DNA of 64,000 nt from Apostichopus japonicus (lineage: Eukaryota > Echinodermata > Holothuroidea > Aspidochirotida > Stichopodidae): NCBI RefSeq assembly GCF_037975245.1, contig NC_092573.1, forward strand, positions 26,443,265 through 26,507,264, given 5' to 3'. The notes below the pieces were generated by a model, which was given only the letters and a program-made list of their open reading frames with translations, was not told where the DNA came from and searched no databases. Below, piece by piece: positions 13,053 to 62,879 of the stretch. Position 1 is the first letter of the stretch, and the number at the start of each line of letters is the position of its first letter. Position numbers and translations under genes: made by a program.

Positions 13053-16000
13053 CTATAGAATATAACAAGGTTGAACAACATTAATGCTGTTAATTTGCTA
13101 CATTGTCAGCTAACTGGGACCATCACACTATAATATACCAGACTAGTAAACAGATTACAAATTTCTGACTACCTGCATATACAATTGCACAAAATCTGAA
13201 GTAACTTGATCCATGTCAGTGCACCGATGACATACAAACACAAGGATAACATCTTTTAGGTTTATTTCTGACTCTTTTAATCATATACCACTATAACAAT
13301 CATTATTGATTACAAAATATTTGAGGAGATCAATTTGCCAAGCCCATTATTATGGAGAGCCTAATAAATGACTTTGATGTTGATATTTCCCACAATCTGA
13401 AGTACTGAATTTTCAGCAATATCAAGTACATTAGCCAAAGAGGATCCCATCTTTACAGTGCAGCAATATCAAGTACATTAGCCAAAGAGGATCCCATCTT
13501 AACAGTGCAGCAATATCAAGTACATTAGCCAAAGAGGATCCCACCTTAACAGTGCAGCAATATCAAGTGCATTAGCCAAAGAGGATCCCATCTTTACAGT
13601 GCATCAATATCAAGTACATTAGCCAAAGAGGATCCCATCTTTACAGTGCAGCAATATCAAGTACATTAGCCAAAGAGGATCCCATCTTAACAGTGCAGCA
13701 ATATCAAGTACATTAGCCAAAGAGGATCCCATCTTTACAGTGCATCAATATCAAGTACATTAGCCAAAGAGGATCCCATCTTAACAGTGCATCAATATCA
13801 AGTACATTAGCCAAAGAGGATCCCATCTTAACAGTGCATCAATATCAAGTACATTAGCCAAAGAGGATCCCATCTTTACAGTGCATCAATATCAAGTACA
13901 TTAGCCAAAGAGGATCCCATCTTTACAGTGCAGCAATATCAAGTACATTAGCCAAAGAGGATCCCATCTTAACAGTGCATCAATATCAAGTACATTAGCC
14001 AAAGAGGATCCCATCTTTACAGTGCAGCAATATCAAGTACATTAGCCAAAGAGGATCCCATCTTAACAGTGCAGCAATATCAAGTACATTAGCCAAAGAG
14101 GATCCCATCTTTACAGTGCATCAATATCAAGTACATTAGCCAAAGAGGATCCCATCTTAACAGTGCATCAATATCAAGTACATTAGCCAAAGAGGATCCC
14201 ATCTTAACAGTGCATCAATATCAAGTACATTAGCCAAAGAGGATCCCATCTTTACAGTGCATCAATATCAAGTACATTAGCCAAAGAGGATCCCATCTTT
14301 ACAGTGCATCAATATCAAGTACATTAGCCAAAGAGGATCCCATCTTAACAGTGCATCAATATCAAGTACATTAGCCAAAGAGGATCCCATCTTAACAGTG
14401 CAGCAATATCAAGTACATTAGCCAAAGAGGATCCCATCTTTACAGTGCATCAATATCAAGTACATTAGCCAAAGAGGATCCCATCTTAACAGTGCAGCAA
14501 TATCAAGTGCATTAGCCAAAGAGGATCCCATCTTTACAGTGCATCAATATCAAGTACATTAGCCAAAGAGGATCCCATCTTTACAGTGCAGCAATATCAA
14601 GTGCATTAGCCAAAGAGGATCCCATCTTTACAGTGCAGCAATATCAAGTACATTAGCCAAAGAGGATCCCATCTTAACAGTGCAGCAATATCAAGTACAT
14701 TAGCCAAAGAGGATCCCATCTTTACAGTGCAGCAATATCAAGTACATTAGCCAAAGAGGATCCCATCTTAACAGTGTAGCAATATCAAGTACATTAGCCA
14801 AAGAGGATCCCATCTTTACAGTGCATCAATATCAAGTACATTAGCCAAAGAGGATCCCATCTTTACAGTGCATCAATATCAAGTACATTAGCCAAAGAGG
14901 ATCCCATCTTAACAGTGTAGCAATATCAAGTACATTAGCCAAAGAGGATCCCATCTTTACAGTGCATCAATATCAAGTACATTAGCCAAAGAGGATCCCA
15001 TCTTAACAGTGCATCAATATCAAGTACATTAGCCAAAGAGGATCCCATCTTTACAGTGCATCAATATCAAGTACATTAGCCAAAGAGGATCCCATCTTTA
15101 CAGTGCATACAAAATATGTTGATACAGTATTTAAACAGGGGCAGTTCCGTAAACTAGTAAACCTTTTCACCAAAACTTAAAAAACGTTGAATCATTACAT
15201 ATAGGGTATCAGATGAAAGCTAAAACTCTGAAGTTTCATTATATTTAGCTAATTTTCACAGAACAAATTGTTTTCAGGCAGATTAAGGTGTGTATTAGTC
15301 AACCAAAAAAATCTCAAATTTGCTTCACAAAAATTACCCAAAAACAAAATGCCTATTTTTGCCCGTGTATCTTCAGATGAATAAATATTCTTGGATTTGC
15401 TGAAGTGATATAATATATAAATTCAGTTGACAAACAAATAAAGTTGCAGGGATTTTCAGTTTTCTGAGAATAACTTTTTGTACAAATGTAAATTGTCGTC
15501 CGTCACAGAAAAATCACATTTTTTAAAATTTCATACAGAAGGAGGTACCCAGATTTCAAGACATCTACAATTCAATGCACATTTTGAACACTCAATAACT
15601 ACATAATGTGCCTTTAATCCCTAGGATTTTATTTTTTCAGAAAATGCTGTGACAGACATACGTATTTTTGTACGTCCGTCACGTACGTCCGTCACGCGTA
15701 CGTCCGTCACATTATTTTTGTTTAGATAAACAATGTATTTTAACATGTTTATCACTACAGTACCTCTGAATTTAATAATCAAACCCATTTAGTCATTAAC
15801 ACAGATATTAGGTAGTTTTGCGGTTGCTTCATTAGCATAAATGTAGTGGTATGCAAACATTGCATACTTCAGTGTCAACTAGCATATTTGTGTTATTGGA
15901 ATTAGCACTTGGCAAAATATCAAAGAAATGGCATGGTATTGAACCACATGTTCAGTATGCTATTGTCTACATTGATATAACACTTTCACCTGAAAGCCTT

Positions 16001-38800: not shown

Positions 38801-41800
38801 CTAAAATTGTAAAGGAAATTTAAGTCATGTACCCATACCAAGGCAAGATCACATAAATTTCCCATCACTTTGTGCCATATATTAGCAATGTTGTTTTACA
38901 TGTATCTATGACTAATATCTTTTTCACAATATTAGTGTTACTGCAGACAAATGTAGATTAATGTTGTCTATCAACACTGAATGTTATATACTAACCTTTG
39001 TGGATTAATGTTGTCTATCAACACTGAATGTTATATACTAACATTTTTGGATCAATTTTGTCTATCAACACTAAACCTTGTATACTAACACTTGTAGATC
39101 AATGCTGTCTATCAACACTGTATCTTGTATACTAACACTTGTGGATCAATTCTGTCTATCAACACTGAATCTTGTATACTAACATTTGTGGATTAATGTT
39201 GTCTATCAACACTGAATGTTATATACTAACATTTTTGGATCAATGTTCTCTATCAACACTGAATGTTATATACTAACACTTGCAGATCAATGCCGTCTAT
39301 CAACAATGAATCTTAACACTTGTGGATCAATTCTGTCTATCAACACTAAATCTGGTATACTAACATTTATGGATTAATGTTGTCTATCAACACTGAATGT
39401 TATATACTAACACTTGTGGATCAATGTTCTCTATCAACACTGAATCTGGTATACCAACATTTGTGGATTAATGTTGTCTATCAACGCTGAGTGTAATATA
39501 CTGACATTTGTGGATCATGTTGTCTATCAACACTGAATCTTGAATCCTATCACTTGAGGATCAATATTGTTTATCAATACTGAATGTTGTATATTAAAAC
39601 TTGCGGATGATCAATATTGTCTATCAACACCTAATCTTGTATACTTACACATGTGGATCAATGTTGTCTATCAACACTGAATCTGGTATACTAAAATTTG
39701 TGGATTAATGTTGTCTATCAACAGTGAATGTTATATACTAAAACTTGTAGATCAATGTTGACAATCAAAACTGAATGTTGTATACTAACACTTGTAGATC
39801 AATTTTGTCTATTTACACTGAACCTTGTATACTAACATTTGTAGATCAATGTTGACTACCAATACACACAGATCAATGCTCTTATACTGACAATTATATA
39901 TCTACTAACACTCACAGATTACTAGTGCTGTCTCCCTACAAGTCTACAGGTAGTATGCACACTACCCCTGCTGATCAATGCTCTTATACTGACAATTATA
40001 TATCTACTAACTCTCACAGATTACTAGTGCTGTCTCCCTACAAGTCTACAGGTAGTATGCACACTACCCCTGCTGATCAATGCTCTTATACTGACAATTA
40101 TATATCTACTAACTCTCACAGATTACTAGTGCTGTCTCCCTACAAGTCTACAGGTAGTATGCACACTACCCCTGCTGATCAATGCTCTTATACTGACAAT
40201 TATATATCTACTAACTCTCACAGATTACTAGTGCTGTCTCCCTACAAGTCTACAGGTAGTATGCACACTACCCCTGCTGATCAATGCTCTTATACTGACA
40301 ATTATATATCTACTAACTCTCACAGATTACTAGTGCTGTCTCCCTACAAGTCTACAGGTAGTATGCACACTACCCCTGCTGATCAATGCTCTTATACTGA
40401 CAATTATATATCTACTAACTCTCACAGATTACTAGTGCTGTCTCCCTACAAGTCTACAGGTAGTATGCACACTACCCCTGCTGATCAATGCTCTTATACT
40501 GACAATTATATATCTACTAACTCTCACAGATTACTAGTGCTGTCTCCCTACAAGTCTACAGGTAGTATGCACACTACCCCTGCTGATCAATGCTCTTATA
40601 CTGACAATTATATATCTACTAACTCTCACAGATTACTAGTGCTGTCTCCATACAATTCTACAGGTAGTATGCACACTACCCATGCTGATCAATGCTCTTA
40701 TACTGACAATTATATATCTACTAACTCTCACAGATTACTAGTGCTGTCTCCCTACAAGTCTACAGGTAGTATGCACACTACCCCTGCTGATCAATGCTCT
40801 TATACTGACAATTATATATCTACTAACACTCACAGATTACTAGTGCTGTCTCCCTACAAGTCTACAGGTAGTATGCACACTACCCCTGCTGATCAATGCT
40901 CTTATACTGACAATTATATATCTACTAACACTCACAGATTACTATTGCTGTCTCCCTACAAGTCTACAGGTAGTATGCACACTACACCTGCTGATCAATG
41001 CTCTTATACTGACAATTATATATCTACTAACTCTCACAGATTACTAGTGCTGTCTCCCTACAAGTCTACAGGTAGTATGCACACTACCCCTGCTGATCAA
41101 TGCTCTTATACTGACAATTATATATCTACTAACTCTCACAGATTACTAGTGCTGTCTCCCTACAAGTCTACAGGTAGTATGCACACTACCCATGCTGATC
41201 AATGCTCTTATACTGACAATTATATATCTACTAACACTCACAGATTACTAGTGCTGTCTCCCTACAAGTCTACAGGTAGTATGCACACTACACCTGCTGA
41301 TCAATGCTCTTATACTGACAATTATATATCTACTAACTCTCACAGATTACTAGTGCTGTCTCCCTACAAGTCTACAGGTAGTATGCACACTACCCCTGCT
41401 GATCAATGCTCTTATACTGACAATTATATATCTACTAACTCTCACAGATTACTAGTGCTGTCTCCCTACAATTCTACAGGTAGTATGCACACTACCCATG
41501 CTGATCAATGCTCTTATACTGACAATTATATATCTACTAACTCTCACAGATTACTAGTGCTGTCTCCCTACAAGTCTACAGGTAGTATGCACACTACCCC
41601 TGCTGATCAATGCTCTTATACTGACAATTATATATCTACTAACTCTCACAGATTACTAGTGCTGTCTCCCTACAAGTCTACAGGTAGTATGCACACTACC
41701 CCTGCTGATCAATGCTCTTATACTGACAATTATATATCTACTAACTCTCACAGATTACTAGTGCTGTCTCCCTACAAGTCTACAGGTAGTATGCACACTA

Positions 41801-43889
41801 CCCCTGCTGATCAATGCTCTTATACTGACAATTATATATCTACTAACACTCACAGATTACTAGTGCTGTCTCCCTACAAGTCTACAGGTAGTATGCACAC
41901 TACACCTGCTGATCAATGCTCTTATACTGACAATTATATATCTACTAACTCTCACAGATTACTAGTGCTGTCTCCCTACAAGTCTACAGGTAGTATGCAC
42001 ACTACCCCTGCTGATCAATGCTCTTATACTGACAATTATATATCTACTAACTCTCACAGATTACTAGTGCTGTCTCCCTACAAGTCTACAGGTAGTATGC
42101 ACACTACCCATGCTGATCAATGCTCTTATACTGACAATTATATATCTACTAACTCTCACAGATTACTATTGCTGTCTCCCTACAAATCTACAGGTAGTAT
42201 GCACACTACCCCTGCTGATCAATGCTCTTATACTGACAATTATATATCTACTAACTCTCACAGATTACTAGTGCTGTCTCCCTACAAGTCTACAGGTAGT
42301 ATGCGCACTACCCCTGCTGATCAATACTGTCTACACTCTTGTGATTTGATTCTTGCAGATCAATTGTCTACAAACACTTAATGCTGTCTACTAGCAATCA
42401 CTTATTACTAGATATGAAATACCTTATATACATACCAAACTTAGAGGAGCATAACAACTCTTCAAAATTATCTGGTATGTCATGGCTGCAGATTGGACAT
42501 TCTTGGAGAAGGAAAATAAAACCAATGGATTAATAAATGTCATGTTGAAAGCGTAACAAGTGTTTATCATCAATGGTGAAGTGAATGAACGTAACCATCA
42601 TGAATGAGATACTTTGACAGTAGACAACATCTCTGAAATATCAAGTTGAAGGAACATTAAGGTAATTTTCACATGCCTGGCAATTCATAATTGTAAAATC
42701 CATGCAACTGAAATTGCAGTTAAATGACTCTTTACAGTGATGACATTGGTATATGCATTTTACAAGATCCCAAACTTCAGTTCAAAGTACTGATAAGGTG
42801 ACCAAGTACCCTGCGGATGTTTTATAGATTGGCTTATCAAACACATGGATCCACTAAATGCTCAATTGTAAGCTGCCAGTCAGACTGTAGCCCTGATCAG
42901 CCCATCTGGTTGTAACACTATTTCTAGCTTCTCAACTACTTAAATACACCTGGGCATTTTAAACCTCACCACAGCTGTCCCTCCAAATATAGAAATAGCC
43001 TAGGAATGTAGTGAGGCAGAGTTTACAATACAAACCAACATTTGAAATATTGTATTGGAGGCTTTTAGCAACTGCTTGTTAATTCTAATGTGATGATTTT
43101 AACCTACCTTAAGATTGTACCCTTCAGACAGCGGACTCAAGGATTGGTGGTCGTTTGTGTGCAATGTCACTCAAAGAACACAGCATAATTATCCAGTCAC
43201 AATGCATTGACTGTCTTTATCTTATTACAGATATGATGTAAAAGCTGACCGTCATATGACAAATGACTTATGCCAAAAATCTGTATAAAAGTAATAGAGT
43301 ATCGTCTTACTGTTCAATGATAAGGAACTGTTATCAGGTTCTTCAATATAGTAAAGGACACTTGTAACCAGATCTGCAAGACAAAAGAATTTAAATTTAG
43401 TAGTTTTCAAAATTGAAATTGTGGCTAAGATAAATTGTCCATAAGAATCGATTTGTTAGCGTGAACTCAAATTAGTTTAATATGAGGAAATTACTGAGGT
43501 TTCTATGGTAAACATATGTATCGTTTCAAATGCGAAAATTATTTAAAATATCAGGTTTACACATTTTGTGACATCTTGACAAACTCTAATAAACTGGAAA
43601 TGAAAGCACTATTGTTGTTGGTAAGTCATCACAGTAATGTCTCTTCAACATTTCCGTACATAGATACCTCTGTTGCCAAGTAACAGTCCTTACATTTAAC
43701 CAGTGAGGCCAGTATGTGTATGTTATAGAACTGTATAGACCAATCTAAGTTTCCTCCAACTTGTTTGTCACTTTTAGACCCTAAACATTGAATTGTTGCA
43801 AACATAAACATGACAACAGAAATAAGGAGGCAAGAAAACATTAACATTTTGCTGATTTAATATGCTAGATCTTTCAGGAAAGTAACATT

Positions 43890-46900: not shown

Positions 46901-49900
46901 GTGCTAATTGGTGAATACTAAGTCTCATAATGGGGTACTGTAAAGGGAGTGTGGTTGTAAGGAGACAAGGAATGGGGTGAAGTAATTAAACAGATTACCT
47001 CTTGAAAGTAAACAATGACTCTTCCCTTTTCTAGATCAACCTGCTTTAAGTTGTCAGTGATGAGCCCTGTCAAAGAATCCTCAACAAGTGTAAAACCAGA
47101 TTGGGGTTTGTTCTCCACCAAGGCCATATTAGATCTTTTGTCATTTCCAGTGTAGCTGGTTGCAAAAGAAAACAGACAAATCATTACTCAAAGACTAGAA
47201 TAGCACTACTTGATAACACATTATAATATATACATCCAATCAAGTGCACTGCCATTGAGAATTAACCCTCCAGTATTATGGTTTACTAACCTTGCACAAA
47301 TTGTGATGTGGTATTTTGAAACTTCATTTTCAACAGGTATAATGGTATGGTTGAGGGTAAATGGTGCATCATTTCGAGTTTCTGGGAACACATTGTACTT
47401 CCATGATACCTGTGCATGTGATGAAAAGATCTTTATTTCTCTTTTTCTTCAATCTTCTGCACAAAACTGAATGATTCTGTTATTGGACATATATATTAGT
47501 ATTTGAAATACTTCAGGACATTGTATTTGATACCTGTCCTCTCCTATTCCAATAACTATTGGTGTGCTGGGTATTACCTTGCCAATCGCACATCCTGTTC
47601 CTACTGCTGCAATCTGAACAAATGTTGGCAGCACCTGGATGGTCTGTTCCTGCAGGACAAATTTATTTTCATTTGATATACTAAGCTCAGAGACTTCGCA
47701 AGGAGGACTAGCCACAACTGTAACCTGAATGTCCTGGTCACCAGCATAGACTAATGCTGCATACTCAGCCAAGACCTGCAAGCCCACAACAGTGTCCTGT
47801 AATGAGATCAAACACAAATTTATGAAGATAAACACTGATGCATATATTAGATATTACACAGGCAAGTTAATAAGACAGGTGCACAACCACAGAGTGCTAG
47901 CAATGATAGCTACAAAATATATGGATGAACACTCAGTTTTCCAATAGCTACAAAATATATGGATGAACACTCAGTTTTCCAATAGCTACAAAATATATGG
48001 ATGAACACTCAGTTTTCCAATAGCTACAAAATATATGGATGAACACTCAGTTTTCCAATAGCTACAAAATATATGGATGAACAGTTTTCCAATAAGCTAC
48101 AAAATATATGTATGAACACTCAGTATTCCAATAGCTACAAAATATATGGATGAACACTCAGTTTTCCAATAGCTACAAAATATATGGATGAACACTCAGT
48201 TTTCCAATAGCTACAAAATATATGGATGAACAGTTTTCCAATAAGCTACAAAATATATGTATGAACACTCAGTATTCCAATAGCTACAAAATATATGGAT
48301 GAACCCTCAGTTTTCCAATAGCTACAAAATATATGGATGAACAGTTTTCCAATAAGCTACAAAATATATGGATGAACACTCAGTTTTCCAATAGCTACAA
48401 AATATATGGATGAACACTCAGTTTTCCAATAGCTACAAAATATATGGATGAACACTCAGTTTTCCAATAGCTACAAAATATATGGATGAACACTCAGTTT
48501 TCCAATAGCTACAAAATATATGGATGAACACTCAGTTTTCCAATAGCTACAAAATATATGGATGAACACTCAGTTTTCAAATAGCTACAAGATATATGGA
48601 TAAACACTCAGTTTTTACAAAATATATTGATGAACACTCAGTTAATTTTCACAAAATATATGGATGGACATTCAGTTTTCCAATAGCAGCAAAATATATG
48701 AAGGAAAACACTCCGTTTTCCAAAAGCTAAAGAATATATGGATGAACCCTCAGTTTTCCAATAGCAAAAGAATATATGGATGAACACTCACTATTCCAAT
48801 AGCTACAAAATATATGTATGAACACTCAGTTTTCAAATAGCTACAAAATATATGTATGAACACTCAGTTTTCAAATAGCTGCAAAATATATCTATGAACA
48901 CTCAGTTTTCCAATAGCTACAAAATATATGTATGAACACTAAGTTTTCCAATTTTTAAAATAAGTAGTTATGTCCTGTACTAGTGATACTGCATAGGCAC
49001 TCATATGTAATTTTGCTAACATGCTCTTGCATTGAATTAAATTCACATACAGACAATTGAATCTACAAGAAATCAAGTCTAGTGCAACAACAATGTTCAG
49101 GTTCTAATATTGCTAATAGTACACGAAATATGCAGAATGTGACACATGCACAGCTTAGACAAACATGTTTACTTGCCACTCTCTCATGACTGAACCACAT
49201 TTACATATAGGATATTCATCAGTTCTGTACTCCTGATCAATATTACCTGTGTTGAAGAGAATCCACCATAAGGATTCTGTTGTTGAATGAGCCACTTAAC
49301 AATAGGAGAAGATTCAGTGATAGCATCAGATAGTTCATAGTATGCAAGGTAACTCAATAGAGCATAAGCAGTTATCTCAACTTGAATGGCAGGGTTGTGA
49401 CTTTGGTAGTAGTGTGTGAAGCTTGGTATATCTTCTCTATTGGATTTCCAATGAACCAATCCTGTAATGGAACATCAAACTATCAAACATGCAGTCATAC
49501 TTTTCAATCATTAATACACCTACCCTGATCAGCAATAGCTGCTGCTTCTATATTCACAGACCTAAGATAATATCAATCAATCATTAATACACCTACCCTG
49601 ATCAGCAATAGCTGCTGCTTCTATATTCACAGACCTACACAATATCCATCAATCATTAATACACCTACCCTGATCAGCAATAGCTGCTGCTTCTATATTC
49701 ACAGGCCTACACAATATCCATCAATCATTAGTACACCTTCCCTGATCAGCAATAGCTGCTGCTTCTATATTCACAGACCTACACAATATCCATCAATCAT
49801 TAATACACCTTCCCTGATCAGCAATAGCTGCTGCTTCTATATTCACAGACCTAAGATAATATCCATCAATCATTAATACACCTACCCTGATCAGCAATAG

Positions 49901-52900
49901 CTGCTGCTTCTACATTCACAGACCTAAGATAATATCTATCAATCATTAATACACCTACCCTGATCAGCAATAGCTGCTGCTTCTATATTCACAGACCTAA
50001 GATAATATCTATCAATTATTAATACACCTACCCTGATCAGCAATAGCTGCTGCTTCTATATTCACAGACCTAAGATAATATCCATCAATCATTAATTCAC
50101 CTACCCTGATCAGCAATAGCTGCTACTTCTATATTCACAGACCTAAGATAATATCCATCAATCATTAATACACCTACCCTGATCAGCAATAGCTGCTGCT
50201 TCTATATTCACAGACCTAAGATAATATCTATCAATCATTAATACACCTACCCTGATCAGCAATAGCTGCGGCTTCTATATTTACAGACCTAAGATAATAT
50301 CCATCAATCATTAATACACCTACCCTGATCAGCAATAGCTGCTGCTTCTATATTCACAGACCTAAGATAATATCCATCAATCATTAATACACCTACCCTG
50401 ATCAGCAATAGCTGCTGCTTCTATATTCACAGACCTAAGATAATATCCATCAATCATTAATACACCTACCCTGATCAGCAATAGCTGCTGCTTCTATATC
50501 ACAGACCTAAGATAATATCTATCAATCATTAATACACCTACCCTGATCAGCAATAGCTGCTGCTTCTATATTCACAGACCTAAGATAATATCTATCAATC
50601 ATTAATACACCTACCCTGATCAGCAATAGCTGTTGCTTCTATATTCACAGACCTAAGATAATATCCATCAATCATTAATACACCTACCCTGATCAGCAAT
50701 AGCTGCTGCTTCTATATTCACAGACCTACTCAATATCCATAAATCATTAATACACCTACCCTGATCAGCAATAGCTGCTGCTTCTATATTTACAGACCTA
50801 AGATGATATCCATAAATCATTAATACACCTACCCTGATCAGCAATAGCTGCTGCTTCTATATTTACAGACCTAAGATGATATCCATAAATCATTAATACA
50901 CCTACCCTGATCAGCAATAGCTGCTGCTTCTATATTTACAGACCTAAGATAATATCCATCAATCATTAATACACCTACCCTGATCAGCAATAGCTGCTGC
51001 TTCTATATTCACAGACCTAAGATAATATCCATCAATCATTAATACACCTACCCTGATCAGCAATAGCTGCTGCTTCTATATTCACAGACCTAAGATAATA
51101 TCTATCAATCATTAATACACCTACCCTGATCAGCAATAGCTGCTGCTTCTATATTCACAGACCTAAGATAATATCCATCAATCATTAATACACCTACCCT
51201 GATCAGCAATAGCAGCTGCTTCTATATTCACAGACCTACACAATATCCATCAATCATTAATACACCTACCCTGATCAGCAATAGCTGCTGCTTCTATATT
51301 CACAGACCTAAGATAATATCAATCAATCATTAATACACCTACCCTGATCAGCAATAGCTGCTGCTTCTATATTCACAGACCTAAGATAATATCTATCAAT
51401 CATTAATACACCTACCCTGATCAGCAATTGCTGCTGCTTCTATATTCACAGACCTACTCAATATCCATAAATCATTAATACACCTACCCTGATCAGCAAT
51501 AGCTGCTGCTTCTATATTCACAGACCTAAGATAATATCCATCAATCATTAATACACCTACCCTGATCAGCAATAGCTGCTGCTTCTATATTCACAGACCT
51601 AAGATAATATCCATCAATCATTAATACACCTACCCTGATCAGCAATTGCTGCTGCTTCTATATTCACAGACCTACTCAATATCCATAAATCATTAATACA
51701 CCTACCCTGATCAGCAATAGCTGCTGCTTCTATATTCACAGACCTAAGATAATATCCATCAATCATTAATACACCTACCCTGATCAGCAATAGCTGCTGC
51801 TTCTATATTCACAGACCTACTCAATATCCATAAATCATTAATACACCTACCCTGATCCCTAATAGCTGCATCTTCTAGCTTTTCAAATATATCTATAGCT
51901 CTGTAGCTCCTCATCTTCACCAATGCAAAAGTCACCAATGCAATGGCATAGTTGTCAGTGATATTATCCACCCTTACTTCCAAACACTGGATGCCATTCA
52001 CAATGGTCTCATCCTGTTGACAACAGAAAGATAAGATCATAATAAAGAGATATTCTGGTGACTGATTGCTTAGCATCTGCAGTTAGAAACCATATCCAAA
52101 TAGCATTTTGTATTGTGATTATAGGAAGTTTTCAAATTTGGTGATATTTACTAAATGCCTCTGGCAACAGCAGGATGAATGATGATGTCATGGCAAATGA
52201 GGTGACAGTAACATTTTTCTTGGTGATATTTCAACCACTTAGCACCACAGAGGAACTAATATTTACACAAAAAAAGATGCATTTTGATGAAATTCTAACT
52301 ACAGAGAAAATTGACAGCAATTAATACAAACAATGTAAATGTATCAAGTTTCAAGAATAAATCAACAGGAAGATGACAATAGCCTATGAAGTGAACCTTT
52401 GCAAGTCATCTGCCTGATGACATCACAGACAATAAGGCAGATGGACTTCAAAACTTGTGGTACTGCACCAGGGTTCTGGCTGTTGTTGTCATAATATCAG
52501 AGCTCAAAAGGTTTAAACCAAATTTGTTGTGTGCAATAATTTTGGTTGTGCCAAATCAGCTAAAAGCACTCAAACCAATGAAGAAAATGAAATTCCATGT
52601 TCGTATTCAGTTTATTAATGTAAAATATAGTCAAATGTAATTAAATTTGTGCAAAAAGGGGATTCACAAACTTTGTATTCCTTGGTAAGGGCTGTTAAGC
52701 CTCCATGAGTGGTGATGTCATAGGGCCTAAGATCATAGGGCCTAAAATTCAGCAAATATGTGTTGCAAACTCCTCCTAACTGTAAGGGTCATAGGAATAT
52801 CACATGGAATCAGTCCACTCAACTAACTGTTCTTAACATCTATTAATTAAATGAATAGGGGGTATGTCACAAACAAGAAAATCATATTTATCCTGGCTGG

Positions 52901-55900: not shown

Positions 55901-58900
55901 GATATGCACTGTCATTGTTAAACAATAAGGACATCCCTTTTGCAGGAATTATCAAACAATCACCCTTTCAATCTATTATGTTTCACTGACCAATCATATC
56001 AGAGTAGAATGTCTTAACAGAAATCCCTGCACCATGTATGGACTAATGTTGTACAAATCATGTACATTATTTCCAGGACTCAGACCTGGTTGTGAAGGAT
56101 TCAGAGTCAGTATCAGCAGACTAATTTACGACAGAATCATTGTATTTCACAAAAATATCCATGTCCATAAATGCTTTTTGTCTCCAGTATTTGAAGTTTA
56201 CTCTGTAATCTCCTTCTGCTGGTGCATTATCGTGGAATATTTACAAGTCACAATGTTCCTTTTAACACAGCTCAGGTAATTAGGGATTTGAAAGGGTGTT
56301 GCTATTAAGCTTTCTCATGCTTGTGTAGGCCTATTCATTTTTATCAGATTTTGTTTGACATAAGAACAAAAAGGCTGCTTAGTAATGTTGTTAGCATTGT
56401 TATTTCATGTGTATTATGATCTAATCATTGTAGTCTATTCAATGTACATGAAACAACCAAGAAGCCAAATGGCTAATTAGTGATTCCTTGCCACATTTCA
56501 TATTAGGATATTACTGTAACACTGCAGATTTCAAGTACTGACCACAGCTGAATTTGCATGATCAGCTGGGTTATTGTACTCGAGTGGACCTCTTTATGTG
56601 GTTTCATACCTTGACCTCTGGTAACCTCAGCTGACCACCTCTGCAAAAACTTTGTAGAGAGTAGAAACCCAAACAGTCCATCAAAGTTTCAATTACAGAA
56701 TAAAGATCTTATCAGTGTTCTCACTAAGATACACCCACATACCAAGCATGAAGTTAATGCATCATGCCCTTCTGAGTTATAGTGTTTTCAAACCAAGGGC
56801 AATTACACACATGCCATCGCTACCACATAGATTCCTTGTTTATTGCCTGGCACTCTCTTAGCTACATCAACCAATCCAGCTGACTGATCTAGTGGGTCCA
56901 TGCAGTGCATCACAATGTTAGACAACATTGGTAAAGGGGCTTGAAACATTTTACAACAATGATATTTCCACATCAAATGTTTGACAGGGCAAGCAGGGGG
57001 TATCCTGACAAGATTAATGAGGGATCATGCCCCATTCCATTCATGTTTGACAGGGCAGGCAGGGGGTATCCTGACAAGATTTATGAGAGATCATGCCCAT
57101 CCCTTTCATGTTTGACAGGGGAGGCAGGGGGTTTCCTAACAAGATTAATGAGGGATCATGCCCCATCCCTTTCATGTTTGACAGGGCAGGCAGGGGGTTT
57201 CCTAACAAGATTTATGAGGGATCATGCCCCATCCCTTTCATGTTTGACAGGGCAGGCAGGGGGTTTCCTAACAAGATTAATGAGGGATCATGCCCCATCC
57301 CTTTCATGTTTGACAGGGCAGGCAGGGGGTTTCCTAACAAGATTTATGAGGGATCATGCCCCATCCCTTTCATGTTTGACAGGGGAGGCAGGGGGTTTCC
57401 TAACAAGATTAATGAGGGATCATGCCCCATCCCTTTCATGTTTGACAGGGCAGGCAGGGGGTTTCCTAACAAGATTTATGAGGGATCATGCCCCATCCCT
57501 TTCATGTTTGACAGGGCAGGCAGGGGGTTTCCTAACAAGATTAATGAGGGATCATGCCCCATCCCTTTCATGTTTGACAGGGGAGGCAGGGGGTTTCCTA
57601 ACAAGATTAATGAGGGATCATGCCCCATCCCTTTCATGTTTGACAGGGCAGGCAGGGGGTTTCCTAACAAGATTAATGAGGGATCATGCCCCATCCCTTT
57701 CATGTTTGACAGGGCAGGCAGGGGGTTTCCTAACAAGATTAATGAGGGATCATGCCCCATCCCTTTCATGTTTGACAGGGCAGGCAGGGGGTTTCCTAAC
57801 AAGATTTATGAGGGATCATGCCCCATCCCTTTCATGTTTGACAGGGCAGGCAGGGGGTTTCCTAACAAGATTAATGAGGGATCATGCCCCATCCCTTTCA
57901 TGTTTGACAGGGCAGGCAGGGGGTTTCCTAACAAGATTTATGAGGGATCATGCCCCATCCCTTTCATGTTTGATAGGGGAGGCAGGGGGTTTCCTAACAA
58001 GATTAATGAGGGATCATGCCCCATCCCTTTCATGTTTGACAGGGGAGGCAGGGGGTTTCCTAACAAGATTAATGAGGGATCATGCCCCATCCCTTTCATG
58101 TTTGACAGGGCAGGCAGGGGGTTTCCTAACAAGATTAATGAGGGATCATGCCCCATCCCTTTCATGTTTGACAGGGCAGGCAGGGGGTTTCCTAACAAGA
58201 TTTATGAGGGATCATGCCCCATCCCTTTCATGTTTGACAGGGGAGGCAGGGGGTTTCCTAACAAGATTAATGAGGGATCATGCCCCATCCCTTTCATGTT
58301 TGACAGGGCAGGCAGGGGGTTTCCTAACAAGATTAATGAGGGATCATGCCCCATCCCTTTCATGTTTGACAGGGCAGGCAGGGGGTTTCCTAACAAGATT
58401 TATGAGGGATCATGCCCCATCCCTTTCATGTTTGACAGGGGAGGCAGGGGGTTTCCTAACAAGATTTATGAGGGATCATGCCCCATCCCTTTCATGTTTG
58501 ACAGGGGAGGCAGGGGGTTTCCTAACAAGATTAATGAGGGATCATGCCCCATCCCTTTCATGTTTGACAGGGGAGGCAGGGGGTTTCCTAACAAGATTAA
58601 TGAGGGATCATGCCCCATCCCTTTCATGTTTGACAGGGCAGGCAGGGGGTTTCCTAACAAGATTAATGAGGGATCATGCCCCATCCCTTTCATGTTTGAC
58701 AGGGCAGGCAGGGGGTTTCCTAACAAGATTTATGAGGGATCATGCCCCATCCCTTTCATGTTTGACAGGGGAGGCAGGGGGTTTCCTAACAAGATTAATG
58801 AGGGATCATGCCCCATCCCTTTCATGTTTGACAGGGGAGGCAGGGGGTTTCCTAACAAGATTAATGAGGGATCATGCCCCATCCCTTTCATGTTTGACAG

Positions 58901-61900
58901 GGGAGGCAGGGGGTTTCCTAACAAGATTAATGAGGGATCATGCCCCATCCCTTTCATGTTTGACAGGGGAGGCAGGGGGTTTCCTAACAAGATTAATGAG
59001 GGATCATGCCCCATCCCTTTCATGTTTGACAGGGCAGGCAGGGGGTTTCCTAACAAGATTAATGAGGGATCATGCCCCATCCCTTTCATGTTTGACAGGG
59101 CAGGCAGGGGGTTTCCTAACAAGATTTATGAGGGATCATGCCCCATCCCTTTCATGTTTGACAGGGCAGGCAGGGGGTTTCCTAACAAGATTAATGAGGG
59201 ATCATGCCCCATCCCTTTCATGTTTGACAGGGGAGGCAGGGGGTTTCCTAACAAGATTAATGAGGGATCATGCCCCATCCCTTTCATGTTTGACAGGGCA
59301 GGCAGGGGGTTTCCTAACAAGATTAATGAGGGATCATGCCCCATCCCTTTCATGTTTGACAGGGGAGGCAGGGGGTTTCCTAACAAGATTAATGAGGGAT
59401 CATGCCCCATCCCTTTCATGTTTGACAGGGCAGGCAGGGGGTTTCCTAACAAGATTAATGAGGGATCATGCCCCATCCCTTTCATGTTTGACAGGGGAGG
59501 CAGGGGGTTTCCTAACAAGATTTATGAGGGATCATGCCCCATCCCTTTCATGTTTGATAGGGGAGGCAGGGGGTTTCCTAACAAGATTTATGAGGGATCA
59601 TGCCCCATCCCTCTCCCGACTGGTTGGGCTACTGAACATAAATAACCCTGATACATTTGGAAATTTGCTTATCTGTCAATACTCTCTGTAAATTTTTTAT
59701 TTTTATCTCCTACCTCTCCTCTACCCATGGATTCTTTCTTTCTTCTCTCCATCCCTTGTTTACTAATCCCCTTAGATCTATCTCTGTGTGTACACCATGC
59801 TCATTAACCTGTCTGTATTCTGTGCGTGCATGTATTTGTCCTTTCTGTTACTGTACATAGCGTGTCATTCAGCTTCTGTACAGTTCTACATTACAAGCAT
59901 GGCTTTAACTGGACAGTGCAGTTCTACATTACAAGCATGGCTTTAACTGGACCAGTGCAGTTCTACATTACAAGCATGGATTTAACTGGACAGTGCAGTT
60001 CTACATACAAGCATGGATTTAACTGGACCTGTACAGTTCTACATTACAAGCATAGCTTTAACTGGACCAGTGCAGTTCTACATTACAAGCATGGATTTAA
60101 CTGGACCAGTACAGTTCTACATTACAAGCATGGATTTAACTGGAGCAGTGCAGTTCTACATACAAGCATGGCTTTAACTGGACCAGTGCAGATCTACATT
60201 TCAAGCATGGATTTAACTGGACCAGTGCAGTTCTACATTACAAGCATAGATTTAACTGGACCTGTACAGTTCTACATTACAAGCATAGCTTTAACTGGAC
60301 CAGTGCAGTTCTACATTACAAGCATGGATTTAACTGGACAGTACAGTTCTACATTACAAGCATAGCTTTAACTGGACCAGTGCAGTTCTACATTACAAGC
60401 ATGAATTTAACTGGACAGTACAGTTCTACATTACAAGCATGGCTTTAACTGGACCAGTGCAGATCTACATTTCAAGCATGGATTTAACTGGACCAGTGCA
60501 GTTCTACATTACAAGCATAGATTTAACTGGACCTGTACAGTTCTACATTACAAGCATAGCTTTAACTGGACCAGTGCAGTTCTACATTACAAGCATGGAT
60601 TTAACTGGACAGTACAGTTCTACATTACAAGCATGGATTTAACTGGAGCAGTGCAGTTCTACATACAAGCATGGATTTAACTGGACCTGTACAGTTCTAC
60701 ATTACAAGCATGGCTTTAACTGGACAGTGCAGTTCTACATACAAGCATGGCTTTAACTGGACCAGTGCAGATCTACATTTCAAGCATGGATTTAACTGGA
60801 CCAGTGCAGTTCTACATTACAAGCATAGATTTAACTGGACCTGTACAGTTCTACATTACAAGCATAGCTTTAACTGGACCAGTGCAGTTCTACATTACAA
60901 GCATGGATTTAACTGGACAGTACAGTTCTACATTACAAGCATGGATTTAACTGGAGCAGTGCAGTTCTACATACAAGCATGGATTTAACTGGACCTGTAC
61001 AGTTCTACATTACAAGCATAGCTTTAACTGGACCAGTGCAGTTCTACATACAAGCATGGATTTAACTGGACCTGTACAGTTCTACATTACAAGCATAGCT
61101 TTAACTGGACCAGTGCAGTTCTACATACAAGCATGGATTTAACTGGACCTGTACAGTTCTACATTACAAGCATAGCTTTAACTGGACCAGTGCAGTTCTA
61201 CATTACAAGCATGGATTTAACTGGACAGTGCAGTTCTACATACAAGCATGGCTTTAACTGGACCAGTGCAGTTCTACATTACAAGCATGGCTTTAACTGG
61301 ACAGTGCAGTTCTACATACAAGCATGGCTTTAACTGGACAGTGCAGTTCTACATACAAGCATGGATTTAACTGGACCTGTACAGTTCTACATTACAAGCA
61401 TAGCTTTAACTGGACCAGTGCAGTTCTACATTACAAGCATAGCTTTAACTGGACCAGTGCAGTTCTACATTACAAGCATGGATTTAACTGGACAGTGCAG
61501 TTCTACATACAAGCATGGCTTTAACTGGACCAGTGCAGTTCTACATTACAAGCATGGCTTTAACTGGACAGTGCAGTTCTACATACAAGCATGGCTTTAA
61601 CTGGACAGTGCAGTTCTACATACAAGCATGGATTTAACTGGACCAGTGCAGTTCTACATTACAAGCATGAATTTAACTGGACAGTGCAGTTCTACATTAC
61701 AAGCATAGATTTAACTGGACCAGTGCAGATCTACATTACAAGCATGGCTTTAACTGGACAGTGCAGTTCTACATTACAAGCATGGATTTAACTGGACCTG
61801 TGCAGTTCTACATTACAAGCATGGATTTAACTGGAGCAATGCAGTTCTACATTGCAAGCATGGATTTAACTGGACCAGTGCAGTTCTACATTACAAGCAT

Positions 61901-62879
61901 GGCTTTAACTTTACCAGTACAGTACGAGCATGGATTTAACTGCAAGCTAAGCAATAAATGACTCCAGGGTATTTGCTAAATGTGTCCTTTATTACTATTA
62001 TTAGATGATATTTATATGGCACTTATTCTAAAAGTAAGCTCTAAGTGCTTTAAAAACAAAAGAAACTTCATAACTTCATGAAAGAAAATGACAATGAAAT
62101 TAAATAGATAAGACAATAAAAATGATAAACAAAAACTATCAACAATAAGAGCAAACTAGAGATACTGCAAAATCTAAACTAACAAGAGCAACATGAAAGT
62201 TCAGAAATAAATGCAAACAGAGAAACACAACAAGGGGATCATTAAAAAATATGTTAAAAGAACAAAGAGAAATATTAAATCTGATTTAAAAAGGGGGGGG
62301 GGAGTGATTCCATACTTTGGGGGCATAAACTTCAAAGGACCGATCTCCTCTTTTAGTGGAGCTTGGTTTTTGGTGTTTCCATAGAATTTTATCCCTTCTA
62401 TTAAGTAGTTAGGGGCAGTGCCTTTAAGACATTTGAAGTAAAGTACTAAAATCTTATACCCCACATGATATTTTTATCTCAGAATAATTTCATATGGTTA
62501 CATCATTGGCATTTGATGATAGGGATTGCATTTCCCTGATATTGCACCTGTTGCCAATTAAAAGGAACTCAATTTTATCATAATTTATGTTTAAGAAATT
62601 CATTATTATCCATCGTTTAACCTCCCTGATGCAAGCATCTAGAGTTAGAATCTGGTCCTGCATGTTAGAGCCATTAAATGCAACATAACATTGAGTGTCA
62701 TCAGCATAGAAATTGTATCGGACACAATAATGATATCAGCCTGAGATGCCTTATACAATGTATCCATCAAAAATAGTCAATCTTACCAATCACTGTCATT
62801 TTACCACTGGCAGAATCTGGAACATAATTTTCTGGCAACAGCAAGGCAGCAGTATCCAAGAATATGCCGGATTCATAAT
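38466..62879 (-). CDS. CD109/alpha-2-macroglobulin family thioester protein, 3' half (12 exons)
   Basis: Coding exons, 5' to 3': 62787-62879, 55321-55739, 54427-54501, 51851-52013, 49247-49461, 47578-47796, 47291-47409, 46999-47155, 44076-44178, 43311-43373, 42436-42501, 38466-38800. All introns are GT-AG and phases agree; they encode about 674 residues to the stop. The 5' half lies beyond the window. The thioester domain has GCGEQNM (55669-55683) and RVIHKAMQGG with the reactive-region His (55333-55335), so the thioester is of the His type as in CD109 and insect TEPs. Downstream are QQNPYGGFSSTQ, the receptor-binding-like segment SYTGNDKRSNMALVE and VFDYYEK. The tail has Cys pairs (KCPICSHDIPDNF, GCNCDLVKAGGIDYLL) like an NTR/C345C domain and a hydrophobic stretch near the C-terminus. 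Family members trap proteases, bind surfaces covalently or act in innate immunity. CD109-like is the closest fit; a divergent C3-like protein is the alternative. Confidence 0.92.
38940..39905. repeat. Degenerate ~46-bp tandem repeat (last intron of thioester gene)
   Basis: About 20 diverged units around TTGTCTATCAACACTGAATG, TATACTAACACTTGTGG and ATCAATG. It grades into the ordered 102-bp array and shares GATCAATG and CTACTAACACT(T/C) with it, so the longer unit probably grew from two of these. Confidence 0.85.
39906..42330. repeat. 102-bp satellite, 24 copies (last intron of thioester gene)
   Basis: Near-identical units with CTCACAGATTACTAGTGCTG, CTACAGGTAGTATGCACACT and GATCAATGCTCTTATACTGA; successive starts at 39911, 40013 and so on. 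Since 102 is 34 codons, an 818-codon plus-strand frame stays open; it runs antisense through an intron and varies only at repeat-wide sites, so it is not called a gene. Confidence 0.96.
42436..42501 (-). CDS. Thioester protein exon (Cys-rich start of NTR-like tail)
   Basis: Acceptor TTCTCCAAG, donor GTATGTAT. Encodes CPICSHDIPDNFEELLCSS; three Cys in 20 residues. Confidence 0.85.
43311..43373 (-). CDS. Thioester protein exon (linker)
   Basis: Acceptor GTCTTGCAG, donor GTAAGACG. Encodes LVTSVLYYIEEPDNSSLSLN; phase fits both neighbours, homology weak. Confidence 0.75.
43890..43950. repeat. (TA)n microsatellite
   Basis: Long TA run with one TG interruption, in an intron of the thioester gene. 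Confidence 0.95.
44076..44178 (-). CDS. Thioester protein exon (end of receptor-binding-like domain)
   Basis: Acceptor TTCTTTAG, donor GTAGGTCC. Encodes LTYSGDCVSYDVEKSFNV and ILTVFDYYEK; the DYYE ending is the family hallmark. Confidence 0.9.
44303..46702. repeat. 96-bp satellite, about 25 copies (intron of thioester gene)
   Basis: Units contain TTGGTGACCAGACCATTCTG, CATCCTCATGAAACCATACC, CCAAGTTGTCTACAGTATTC and CTACTTATCACTGTCC. Indels of 1-3 bases and a shortened variant lacking the TTGGTGACC part occur (for example near 45860 and 46220). GACCAGA-CCAT-TCTGGTC in nearly every unit is a small perfect hairpin. Open frames here switch often and are not coding. Confidence 0.96.
46999..47155 (-). 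CDS. Thioester protein exon (receptor-binding-like domain)
   Basis: Acceptor TGCAACCAG, donor GTAATCTG. Encodes YTGNDKRSNMALVENKPQSG and GRVIVYFQE, matching the A2M/CD109 C-terminal domain. Confidence 0.92.
47291..47409 (-). CDS. Thioester protein exon
   Basis: Acceptor CATGCACAG, donor GTTAGTAA. Encodes VSWKYNVFPETRNDAPFTL and HITICA; the W-KYN motif follows the CUB-like region in family members. Confidence 0.9.
47578..47796 (-). CDS. Thioester protein exon (end of TED, CUB-like region)
   Basis: Acceptor TCTCATTACAG, donor GTAATACC. Encodes DTVVGLQVLAEYAALVYAG and VQIAAVGTGCAIGK; joins STQ of the previous exon to give the family STQDTVV. Confidence 0.95.
47903..48955. repeat. 38-bp minisatellite, about 27 copies (intron of thioester gene)
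   Basis: Units ATAGCTACAAAATATATGGA plus TGAACACTCAGTTTTCCA; occasional 31-bp short units lacking CACTCAG, increasingly degenerate after 48570. Confidence 0.95.
49247..49461 (-). CDS. Thioester protein exon (TED, GGFSSTQ)
   Basis: Acceptor CCATTACAG, donor GTAATATT. Encodes VHWKSNREDIPSF, VEITAYALLSYLAYY and QQNPYGGFSSTQ, all typical of the thioester domain. Confidence 0.95.
49507..51850 (-). repeat. 72/73-bp array derived from the adjacent exon end and 5' splice site
   Basis: About 32 tandem units fill the intron between exons 51851-52013 and 49247-49461. On the gene strand each unit carries GAAGCAGCAGCTATTGCTGA then TCAGGGTAGGTGTATTAATG. The true exon ends GAAGATGCAGCTATTAGGGA then TCAGGGTAGGTGTATTAATG, so unit and exon end are homologous across the splice site. 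The protein reading is also alike (IEAAAIADQ versus LEDAAIRDQ). Variants of 72 bp (CTACTCAATATCC or CTACACAATATCC on the plus strand) and 73 bp (CTAAGATAATATCC) are interspersed. The array begins directly at the exon's donor, so the exon end is in effect its first unit. Confidence 0.97.
51851..52013 (-). CDS. Thioester protein exon (TED), parent of the neighbouring array
   Basis: Acceptor TTGTCAACAG, donor GTAGGTGT. Encodes IQCLEVRVDNITDNYAIALV and FEKLEDAAIRDQ; ISDNY-type motif is shared with CD109. Exit phase 1. Its last ~25 bases and donor are homologous to each unit of the 49507-51850 array. Confidence 0.95.
52014..54426 (-). other. Intron of thioester gene without array
   Basis: No exon, ordered tandem repeat or transposon ends recognised; a loose repetition of TACTATGTAC/CATGGGTG phrases at 54100-54330. 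Confidence 0.6.
54427..54501 (-). CDS. Thioester protein exon (TED)
   Basis: Acceptor CTGTTGCAG, donor GTAAGCTT. Encodes GGVNDEITLTAYILLAICE; 25 codons, phase 0 both sides. Confidence 0.95.
55321..55739 (-). CDS. Thioester protein exon carrying the GCGEQ thioester
   Basis: Acceptor CTTCTAG, donor GTAAGTAT. Encodes DLLGPTLSNLENLIRIP, GCGEQNMLGLVPNIYVL, HADGSYSAFGSYDGEGSAWL, TAFVVRSFAQAQNF and GCFRNRGRVIHKAMQ. Cys and Gln of the motif form the internal thioester; the His of RVIH is at the position that directs reactivity to hydroxyls in CD109-type proteins (family knowledge). Confidence 0.97.
55740..56977 (-). other. Intron of thioester gene, unordered part
   Basis: No exon recognised; around 56610 a single copy of the CTTGACCTCTGGTAACC-type phrase resembles the 9.35-11.24 kb repeat. 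Confidence 0.5.
56978..59612. repeat. 66-bp satellite, 40 copies (intron of thioester gene)
   Basis: Units of TGTTTGACAGGGCAGGCAGG, GGGTTTCCTAACAAGATTAA and TGAGGGATCATGCCCCATCC. Variation is almost confined to two sites: GGGCAGG/GGGGAGG and GATTAATG/GATTTATG; first units differ more. 66 is 22 codons, so two plus-strand frames (up to 916 codons) and stretches of a minus-strand frame stay open together; this argues against coding. Confidence 0.98.
59881..61942. repeat. 39-bp minisatellite, about 54 copies (intron of thioester gene)
   Basis: Units CAGTTCTACATTACAAGCAT plus GGATTTAACTGGACCAGTG; 39-, 37- and 36-bp versions occur (loss of CC in GGACCAGT, loss of TT in CATTACAAG). The mixed lengths break any reading frame. 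Confidence 0.97.
61985..62760 (-). pseudogene. LINE (CR1-like) reverse transcriptase fragment
   Basis: The minus strand reads FYADDTQCYVAF at about 62675-62710 (RT catalytic YADD), then ILTLDACIREVKRWI and MNFLNINYDKIEFLLIG, then after frame breaks YKILVLYFKCLKGTAPNYL and RGDRSFEVYAPKVWNHSP (62304-62351), the usual C-terminal end of non-LTR reverse transcriptases. The end near 61985 carries a TTATATGGCACTTATTCTAA motif and ATT repeats, typical of a LINE 3' tail. Endonuclease and 5' part are absent and the frame shifts at least twice, so it is dead. Confidence 0.88.
62787..62879 (-). CDS. Thioester protein first visible exon
   Basis: Acceptor TGTTTGGTAG, donor GTAAGATT. Encodes YESGIFLDTAALLLPENYVP and DSASGKMTVIG, matching the LP-(N/E)-x-V-x-DSA segment that precedes the thioester domain. 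More exons must lie beyond 64000. Confidence 0.88.

Follow-up and report, generated by a model that had tools for sequence, protein, structure and literature searches.

The thioester gene and its repeat-filled intron

On the minus strand of the window, by which the whole 64,000-nucleotide stretch of the sea cucumber Apostichopus japonicus analysed here is meant, lies an immune-type thioester gene of the alpha-2-macroglobulin/CD109-like kind. Two of its exons flank an intron that is filled almost wholly by a tandem array with a repeat unit of 72/73 bp, and the presence in this intron of an array of copies of the exon end and its donor is confirmed. The features are as follows, all on the minus strand:

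51851..52013: 163-nt coding exon, TED domain, one open frame, ending in ...DAAIRDQ plus G, phase 1
51851..51877: exon tail of 27 nt with which the array begins, sharing 22/27 positions with the unit
51850-49462: host intron, 2389 nt, 3' of exon 52013-51851
51845..51850: authentic donor GTAGGT, junction DQG/LVHW, in agreement with A2M and CD109
49504-51877: array as found by TRF, period 73, 32.6 copies, 95% matches, single array
49504..51850: 32 repeats (72/73 bp) followed by a partial unit of 20 nt
51779..51850: first unit, 72 nt with an open frame
49462..49523: 20-nt partial unit and 42-nt array-free intron tail, acceptor TTACAG
49247..49461: next exon, 215 nt, LVHWKSN...GGFSSTQ

When joined, the two exons hit the Pfam family PF07678 (TED_complement, E 1.2e-26) and align to the A2M and CD109 chains through the junction, with no gap there; judged on these alignments, the exon tail is conserved protein-coding sequence. 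A genome search for thioester-gene loci returned 12 places, two of which are the query itself. In the two paralogues measured, L003 and L010, an intron occurs at the same place and in phase 1, its length being 138 and 650 nt, respectively; no array is found in the L003 intron, and that of L010 contains, instead of the 72/73-bp array, a short repeat with a 21-bp unit. As both share the place and phase of the intron and lack this array, the intron predates the array, on the evidence of these two measured paralogues. The preceding exon also has matches in L005, L006, L009 and L011, and a different, 9-bp array lies 5' of the L006 exon.

The same comparisons bear on the opposite order of events, in which the array came first and the end of the exon was taken from it by exonisation of the first unit. 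Exon and unit are indeed homologous in register, as such an order would have it, yet the exon tail aligns gapless to A2M and CD109, and the position and phase of the intron are common to two paralogues, so that exonisation is highly improbable.

Cutting the array at every GATCAGGG[T/A]AGG yields 33 donor sites, of which the authentic one has its GT at 51850 and 32 are copies, with a donor-to-donor spacing of 72 or 73 bp. These figures, together with the TRF copy number, agree with the original prediction of about 32 tandem 72/73-bp units in one intron of the thioester gene. The motif GTAGGT is intact in 31/33 donors (the authentic one and 30 of the copies within 49504..51850), GAAGGT being found in units 29 and 30. 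It had also been claimed that the copies of the authentic 5' splice site are 32 in number and near-perfect: the number stands, but the full 20-mer TCAGGGTAGGTGTATTAATG is present in 28 copies only. This 20-mer has 29 occurrences, every one within 49504-51877, and a whole-genome pattern search found none elsewhere in the genome as searched.

The 32 units fall into 18 distinct types, a 72-bp type with TTTATGG accounting for four of them (units 1, 3, 6 and 16), and 6/864 cells in the exon-like columns are variant. The diversity of types speaks against an assembly artefact, in favour of which nothing was found and which is the least credible of the explanations considered for the array. PacBio HiFi reads normally exceed 2.4 kb. 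Also against an artefact is that the probable source assembly was, according to an excerpt of its description, built with reads of this kind (PMC10344927).

Variant cells are unevenly placed along the unit, with 11/1440 in the donor, intron-head and exon-like columns and 52/896 in the filler, a distribution that would suit selective maintenance of the donor copies, which might act as U1 snRNP binding sites restraining premature polyadenylation. Counted by variable column, however, the difference (9/45 versus 11/28) is not significant (P 0.11), the variants of the filler amount to few shared events, and the even spread of exon overlaps described below speaks against a selected register; selection of this sort is very unlikely.

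Homology between the exon end and the repeat unit

The array had been thought to start directly at the true donor; it starts 27 nt inside exon 51851-52013 instead. When the end of the exon is aligned to every unit, as the original prediction proposed, each of the 32 later tails has 21 or 22 positions identical to the last 27 nt of the exon, and the match is not limited to the splice consensus. The unit consensus differs from the exon tail at 5/27 positions, and intron bases 1-18 after the authentic donor are those of the consensus. Exact sharing, as claimed for exon end, donor and intron head, is thus borne out for the first 18 bases of the intron and fails for the exon part (22/27). Given that the exon tail departs from the consensus at five positions and that the units are near-identical, either the copy that founded the array had already diverged when it was amplified or the exon was altered afterwards.

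Free local alignment of the exon against the unit, run without the last 3 nt and with shuffles as null, gave a borderline result: under a loose scheme 95/2000 shuffles reach the observed score, and under a strict scheme the observed score is 24, the shuffles having a mean of 16.2 and a maximum of 30. As the claim could not stand on this alignment by itself, the register was then fixed by the donor, and 19/24 positions upstream of the last three agree in it (binomial P ~2e-7). The exon-unit match extends beyond the splice consensus.

An origin of the array from the exon's own 3' end and donor, as originally proposed, is therefore supported by the in-register match, and likewise by the alignment of the exon tail as protein to the A2M and CD109 chains, gapless at the intron, by the two measured paralogues with the same intron place and phase and without this array, and by sister cases in the same genome (see below). 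A part of the unit stands apart from this homology. The 28-nt filler upstream of the matched part has no homology to the preceding exon sequence by alignment, 27-28 bp of the unit have no counterpart seen outside the array, and the end position of the array is not the one expected from plain tandem duplication. At the 3' end, the partial unit and the 42-nt tail (49462..49523) are probably a remnant of the intron as it was before the expansion.

A paralogous thioester gene was also considered as the source of the unit and is not supported. One candidate appeared at a first look; a 129-nt query made of the exon end and the first unit led to no other locus.

Arrays crossing exon boundaries elsewhere in the genome

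Two motif searches bear on the recurrence of such arrays. The first, for three perfect copies of CAGGTAAGT spaced 34-63 bp apart, gave 61 matches and six arrays, three of which have their start in a coding exon and run across the donor of that exon, no exon being recognised at the start of the others (L014, L017 and L018). The second, for AGGTAAGT at 63-92 bp spacing, gave 362 matches genome-wide; the 100 listed amount to 19 arrays on contigs 1-7, roughly a quarter of the genome, and among these listed matches 12/19 arrays begin within a coding exon, 4-58 nt before its end (a range that takes in the three of the first search), with no exon recognised for the other seven (L017, L026, L030, L031, L032, L033 and L034). 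L017 belongs to both sets. Whether an array is anchored to an exon was judged, not blind, by open frames, by splice signals and by hits to families. The donor-crossing arrays are listed here with the exon in which they start:

L013, CAGGTAAGT search: Kri1_C, E 4.8e-28
L015, CAGGTAAGT search: open exon, no family hit
L016, CAGGTAAGT search: no family hit, presumably VPS39-like
L019, AGGTAAGT search (as are all below): Aa_trans (amino-acid transporter), Pfam/PDB support
L020: near-identical duplicate of L019, counted by that likeness
L021: Glyco_transf_21, Pfam/PDB support
L022: serine palmitoyltransferase 1 hit, Pfam/PDB support
L023 and L025: tyrosine phosphatase, Pfam/PDB support
L029: VBS, Pfam/PDB support
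L035: Aldolase_II, Pfam/PDB support
L027: EGF, weak, below the curated cut-off
L028: TSP1, weak, below the curated cut-off
L036: TPR-like PDB hits, weak
L024: open frame as sole basis

L019 and L020 lie ~41 kb apart on C1, where the duplicated amino-acid transporter exons each have their own copy of the array. Scaling the 12 anchored arrays by 362/100 would give some 40 in the genome for AGGTAAGT at 63-92 bp.

Match totals are near those of the reversed patterns, 61 versus 50 in the CAGGTAAGT search and 362 versus 417 in the AGGTAAGT search; the counts hence prove nothing, and only the starts of the arrays are informative. For the starts, the control consisted of 12 arrays from the 100 listed of 417 reversed-motif matches, the motif 5' end being fetched. 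None of the 12 adjoins a recognised coding exon, and four open frames taken from these arrays were without a Pfam hit. The exon-anchored share, 12/18 donor arrays without L017 versus 0/12 reversed-motif arrays, gives a Fisher P of 0.0003, to be read with the weakness of this control, half of which (6/12) are 4-bp repeats and for which 1.5 kb upstream was fetched versus ~2.5 kb in the case of the donor arrays. With L017 added, 12/19 are anchored, and with L019 and L020 taken as one duplicated locus 11 independent arrays of 18 are.

On the acceptor side, 15 arrays with the acceptor motif TTTTTNCAG were examined, 12 from a first search and three new ones from a second. L039 (C9:36038500-36041100) clearly spans acceptor and exon: its 57-bp units, of which the piece fetched holds ~10, share the opening 29 nt of an eIF2-alpha exon, the register being kept after the AG. 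L061 (C3:6560800-6562500) probably does so as well, being a diverged 85-bp array that ends at an amino-acid permease exon, 24/40 first bases of which match an upstream unit in register, the AG of that unit being lost. In L037 the repeat covers the acceptor region, the exon match being 18/40 at best and without a family hit, and no exon was seen at the 3' end of the remaining 12/15. Comparison of 12/18 donor with 3/15 acceptor arrays gives a Fisher P of 0.013, from which no asymmetry between donors and acceptors is claimed, because TTTTTNCAG is, at a rough estimate, probably rarer among true acceptors than AGGTAAGT is among donors. L018 (C10:508500-511500), a 19/38-bp array of the donor motif, lies beside a RanBP1-domain exon on the opposite strand and, by my reading, adjoins the acceptor of that exon.

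Origin of the arrays and choice of donor

Where an array falls relative to the exon end is informative as to how it arose. The ratio of exon overlap to period is consistent with a uniform distribution (n=15, L020 left out as a duplicate; mean 0.48, KS P 0.45, a test of low power at this sample size), and an even spread over the repeat unit is what random seeding of minisatellites predicts. Nine thioester loci, taken without regard to arrays and together 28,974 bp long, hold four arrays (20-110 bp, at least 3 copies), and the window holds 16. With one array per 4-7 kb, random seeding could explain the pattern without splice-guided copying, and a given exon end would have a chance of ~1% of lying within one unit of an array start. 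Donor-crossing arrays would survive, the exon retaining a complete donor.

Arrays of this kind have a name. Tandem repeats across exon-intron boundaries were called mirages in amphioxus Adh3 (PMC3087553), and excerpts of two papers report them in Adh3, in globin genes, in PGBD5, where the lancelet mirages are similar, and in TnC (PMC3087553, PMC3902484). Many of the amphioxus units, not all, copy an AG or GT splice signal; unit lengths are 10-72 bp in Adh3 and 150-160 bp in the globins, in which mirages sit at either exon boundary and haplotypes of BflGb6 have 3 or 6 units (PMC3087553, in excerpt). On the features tested and by its sequence, the array of the thioester gene is a mirage minisatellite: its repeats span the exon-intron boundary and hold exon sequence, its units copy the splice signal (31/33 donors intact), its unit length of 72/73 bp is within the published range, and its inner units are homogenised with the cluster boundary excluded (tails 21-22/27 versus 6/864 cells). 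So far as the excerpts go, the amphioxus mirages resemble it as minisatellite-like tandem duplications that span the boundary and copy the splice signal, at either exon end, and also in the homogenised inner units and excluded cluster boundaries. They differ in that the sea cucumber belongs to another phylum and has 33 donors in one array versus the 3 or 6 units of BflGb6, and in that the sea cucumber cases were found in several genes by genome search. Tandem duplication of a segment that bears a splice site is likewise common to the systems of PMC4974935 and to the internal tandem repeats of human exon-intron boundaries (PMC2812944), as excerpted; a new intron arises there, whereas an existing intron grows in the sea cucumber.

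The reading preferred here, at a probability of about 0.82, is that the array is a mirage minisatellite which began as a chance tandem duplication across the exon-intron boundary, and that its first donor is most likely the one spliced. The order of events I infer is that a founding segment, made up of ~27 nt from the end of the exon and ~46 nt from the intron, was tandemly duplicated by chance, after which slippage or unequal exchange raised the copy number, whereby the intron would have grown from perhaps 60-90 nt to 2389 nt; the coding sequence would have stayed whole because the first donor, adjoining the full exon, persists. Most likely the spliceosome takes this donor almost every time, for the exon has an acceptor and enhancers of its own that define it, and the later donors would be neutral or nearly so. 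Along the same line, RT-PCR and Adh3 data on the amphioxus mirages suggest regular splicing (PMC3087553, PMC3902484, in excerpt), and by this parallel splicing at the thioester-gene array may be undisturbed as well (PMC3087553). Counting against the preferred reading are the open frame kept by donor 2, the five differences between exon tail and consensus, the 27-28 bp without a counterpart, the place where the array ends, and the arrays for which no exon was recognised.

Donors 1 and 2 are identical across the 14 nt compared; donor sequence cannot separate donor 1 from most of the copies, and the choice must accordingly rest on context. Exon definition favours the exon-adjacent donor; when U1 occupies two donors at once, the intron-proximal one can be favoured. 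If donor 2 were used, 72 nt, or 24 amino acids, would be added in an open frame; donors 3-33 each meet a stop in unit 2, which leaves donor 2 as the sole open-frame alternative, and a donor-2 isoform may exist.

The human IFI6 (6-16) minisatellite, with a unit of 12 bp, was reportedly described by Turri in 1995 as having multiple splice donors. An excerpt on IFI6 tells of a minisatellite with several donors and of isoforms that use the downstream repeat units (PMC4526556); like the array studied here, it offers repeated donors at an exon end, though use of downstream donors is reported there and the sea cucumber array is known from DNA alone. By this precedent the thioester-gene array might serve alternative splicing, donors 1 and 2 both being used to give two forms of the TED domain, one with an insert of 24 residues ahead of the conserved HW and one lacking it, and the other donors leading to message decay that tunes the level. 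Such a role would draw on the open first unit of 72 nt, on the identity of donors 1 and 2 over 14 nt and on the isoforms of IFI6 itself. Against it, the 72-bp TTTATGG type makes up 4/32 units and thus had a 1 in 8 chance of standing beside the exon, the insert would land within the TED domain, and the next copy keeps an open frame in only 3/14 arrays; an IFI6-like function is unlikely. In the other 11/14 arrays with an assigned frame (L016 has none, and in L019 the next copy has lost its GT), the next in-register copy would shift the frame or introduce a stop. Dependence on the first donor is therefore predicted for genes like that of Kri1 type.

A chance mirage with its first donor spliced, as preferred here, could be part of something wider. 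It is conceivable, and put forward tentatively, that steady genome-wide formation of mirages lengthens introns, starting at their 5' side, in anything from scores to hundreds of genes, some of them housekeeping genes, the first of many identical donors being reliably picked. No less tentative is the extension of this idea to the subset with an in-frame first unit, thioester gene included, which might make length-variable isoforms that differ between individuals.

No report of mirages in echinoderms was recognised by title or start of the abstract among the open-licence papers listed, and the papers naming mirages speak, in the excerpts at hand, of lancelets (PMC3087553, PMC3902484). What is new is the mirage in Apostichopus japonicus and its recurrence across the genome, probably a new lineage for a kind of array that is itself already known; the recurrence suggests that mirages are not peculiar to lancelets. 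Arrays of this type are natural test pieces for 5' splice-site choice, as dozens of equal donors compete in one intron with a copy number set by nature, and they illustrate one route of intron growth.

In the window as a whole (1-64000), 16 tandem arrays with a period of 20-110 bp and at least 3 copies are found, examples being 13417-15108 (47 bp), 39871-42325 (102 bp), 56977-59612 (66 bp) and 59881-61923 (39 bp). Very long open frames of 841 and 918 codons occur on the plus strand at 39856-42381 and 56935-59691; they are most likely not genes, their length being due to an array period that is a multiple of 3. On the minus strand, an open frame at 62490-62735 has a YADD motif, suggestive of a reverse-transcriptase fragment.
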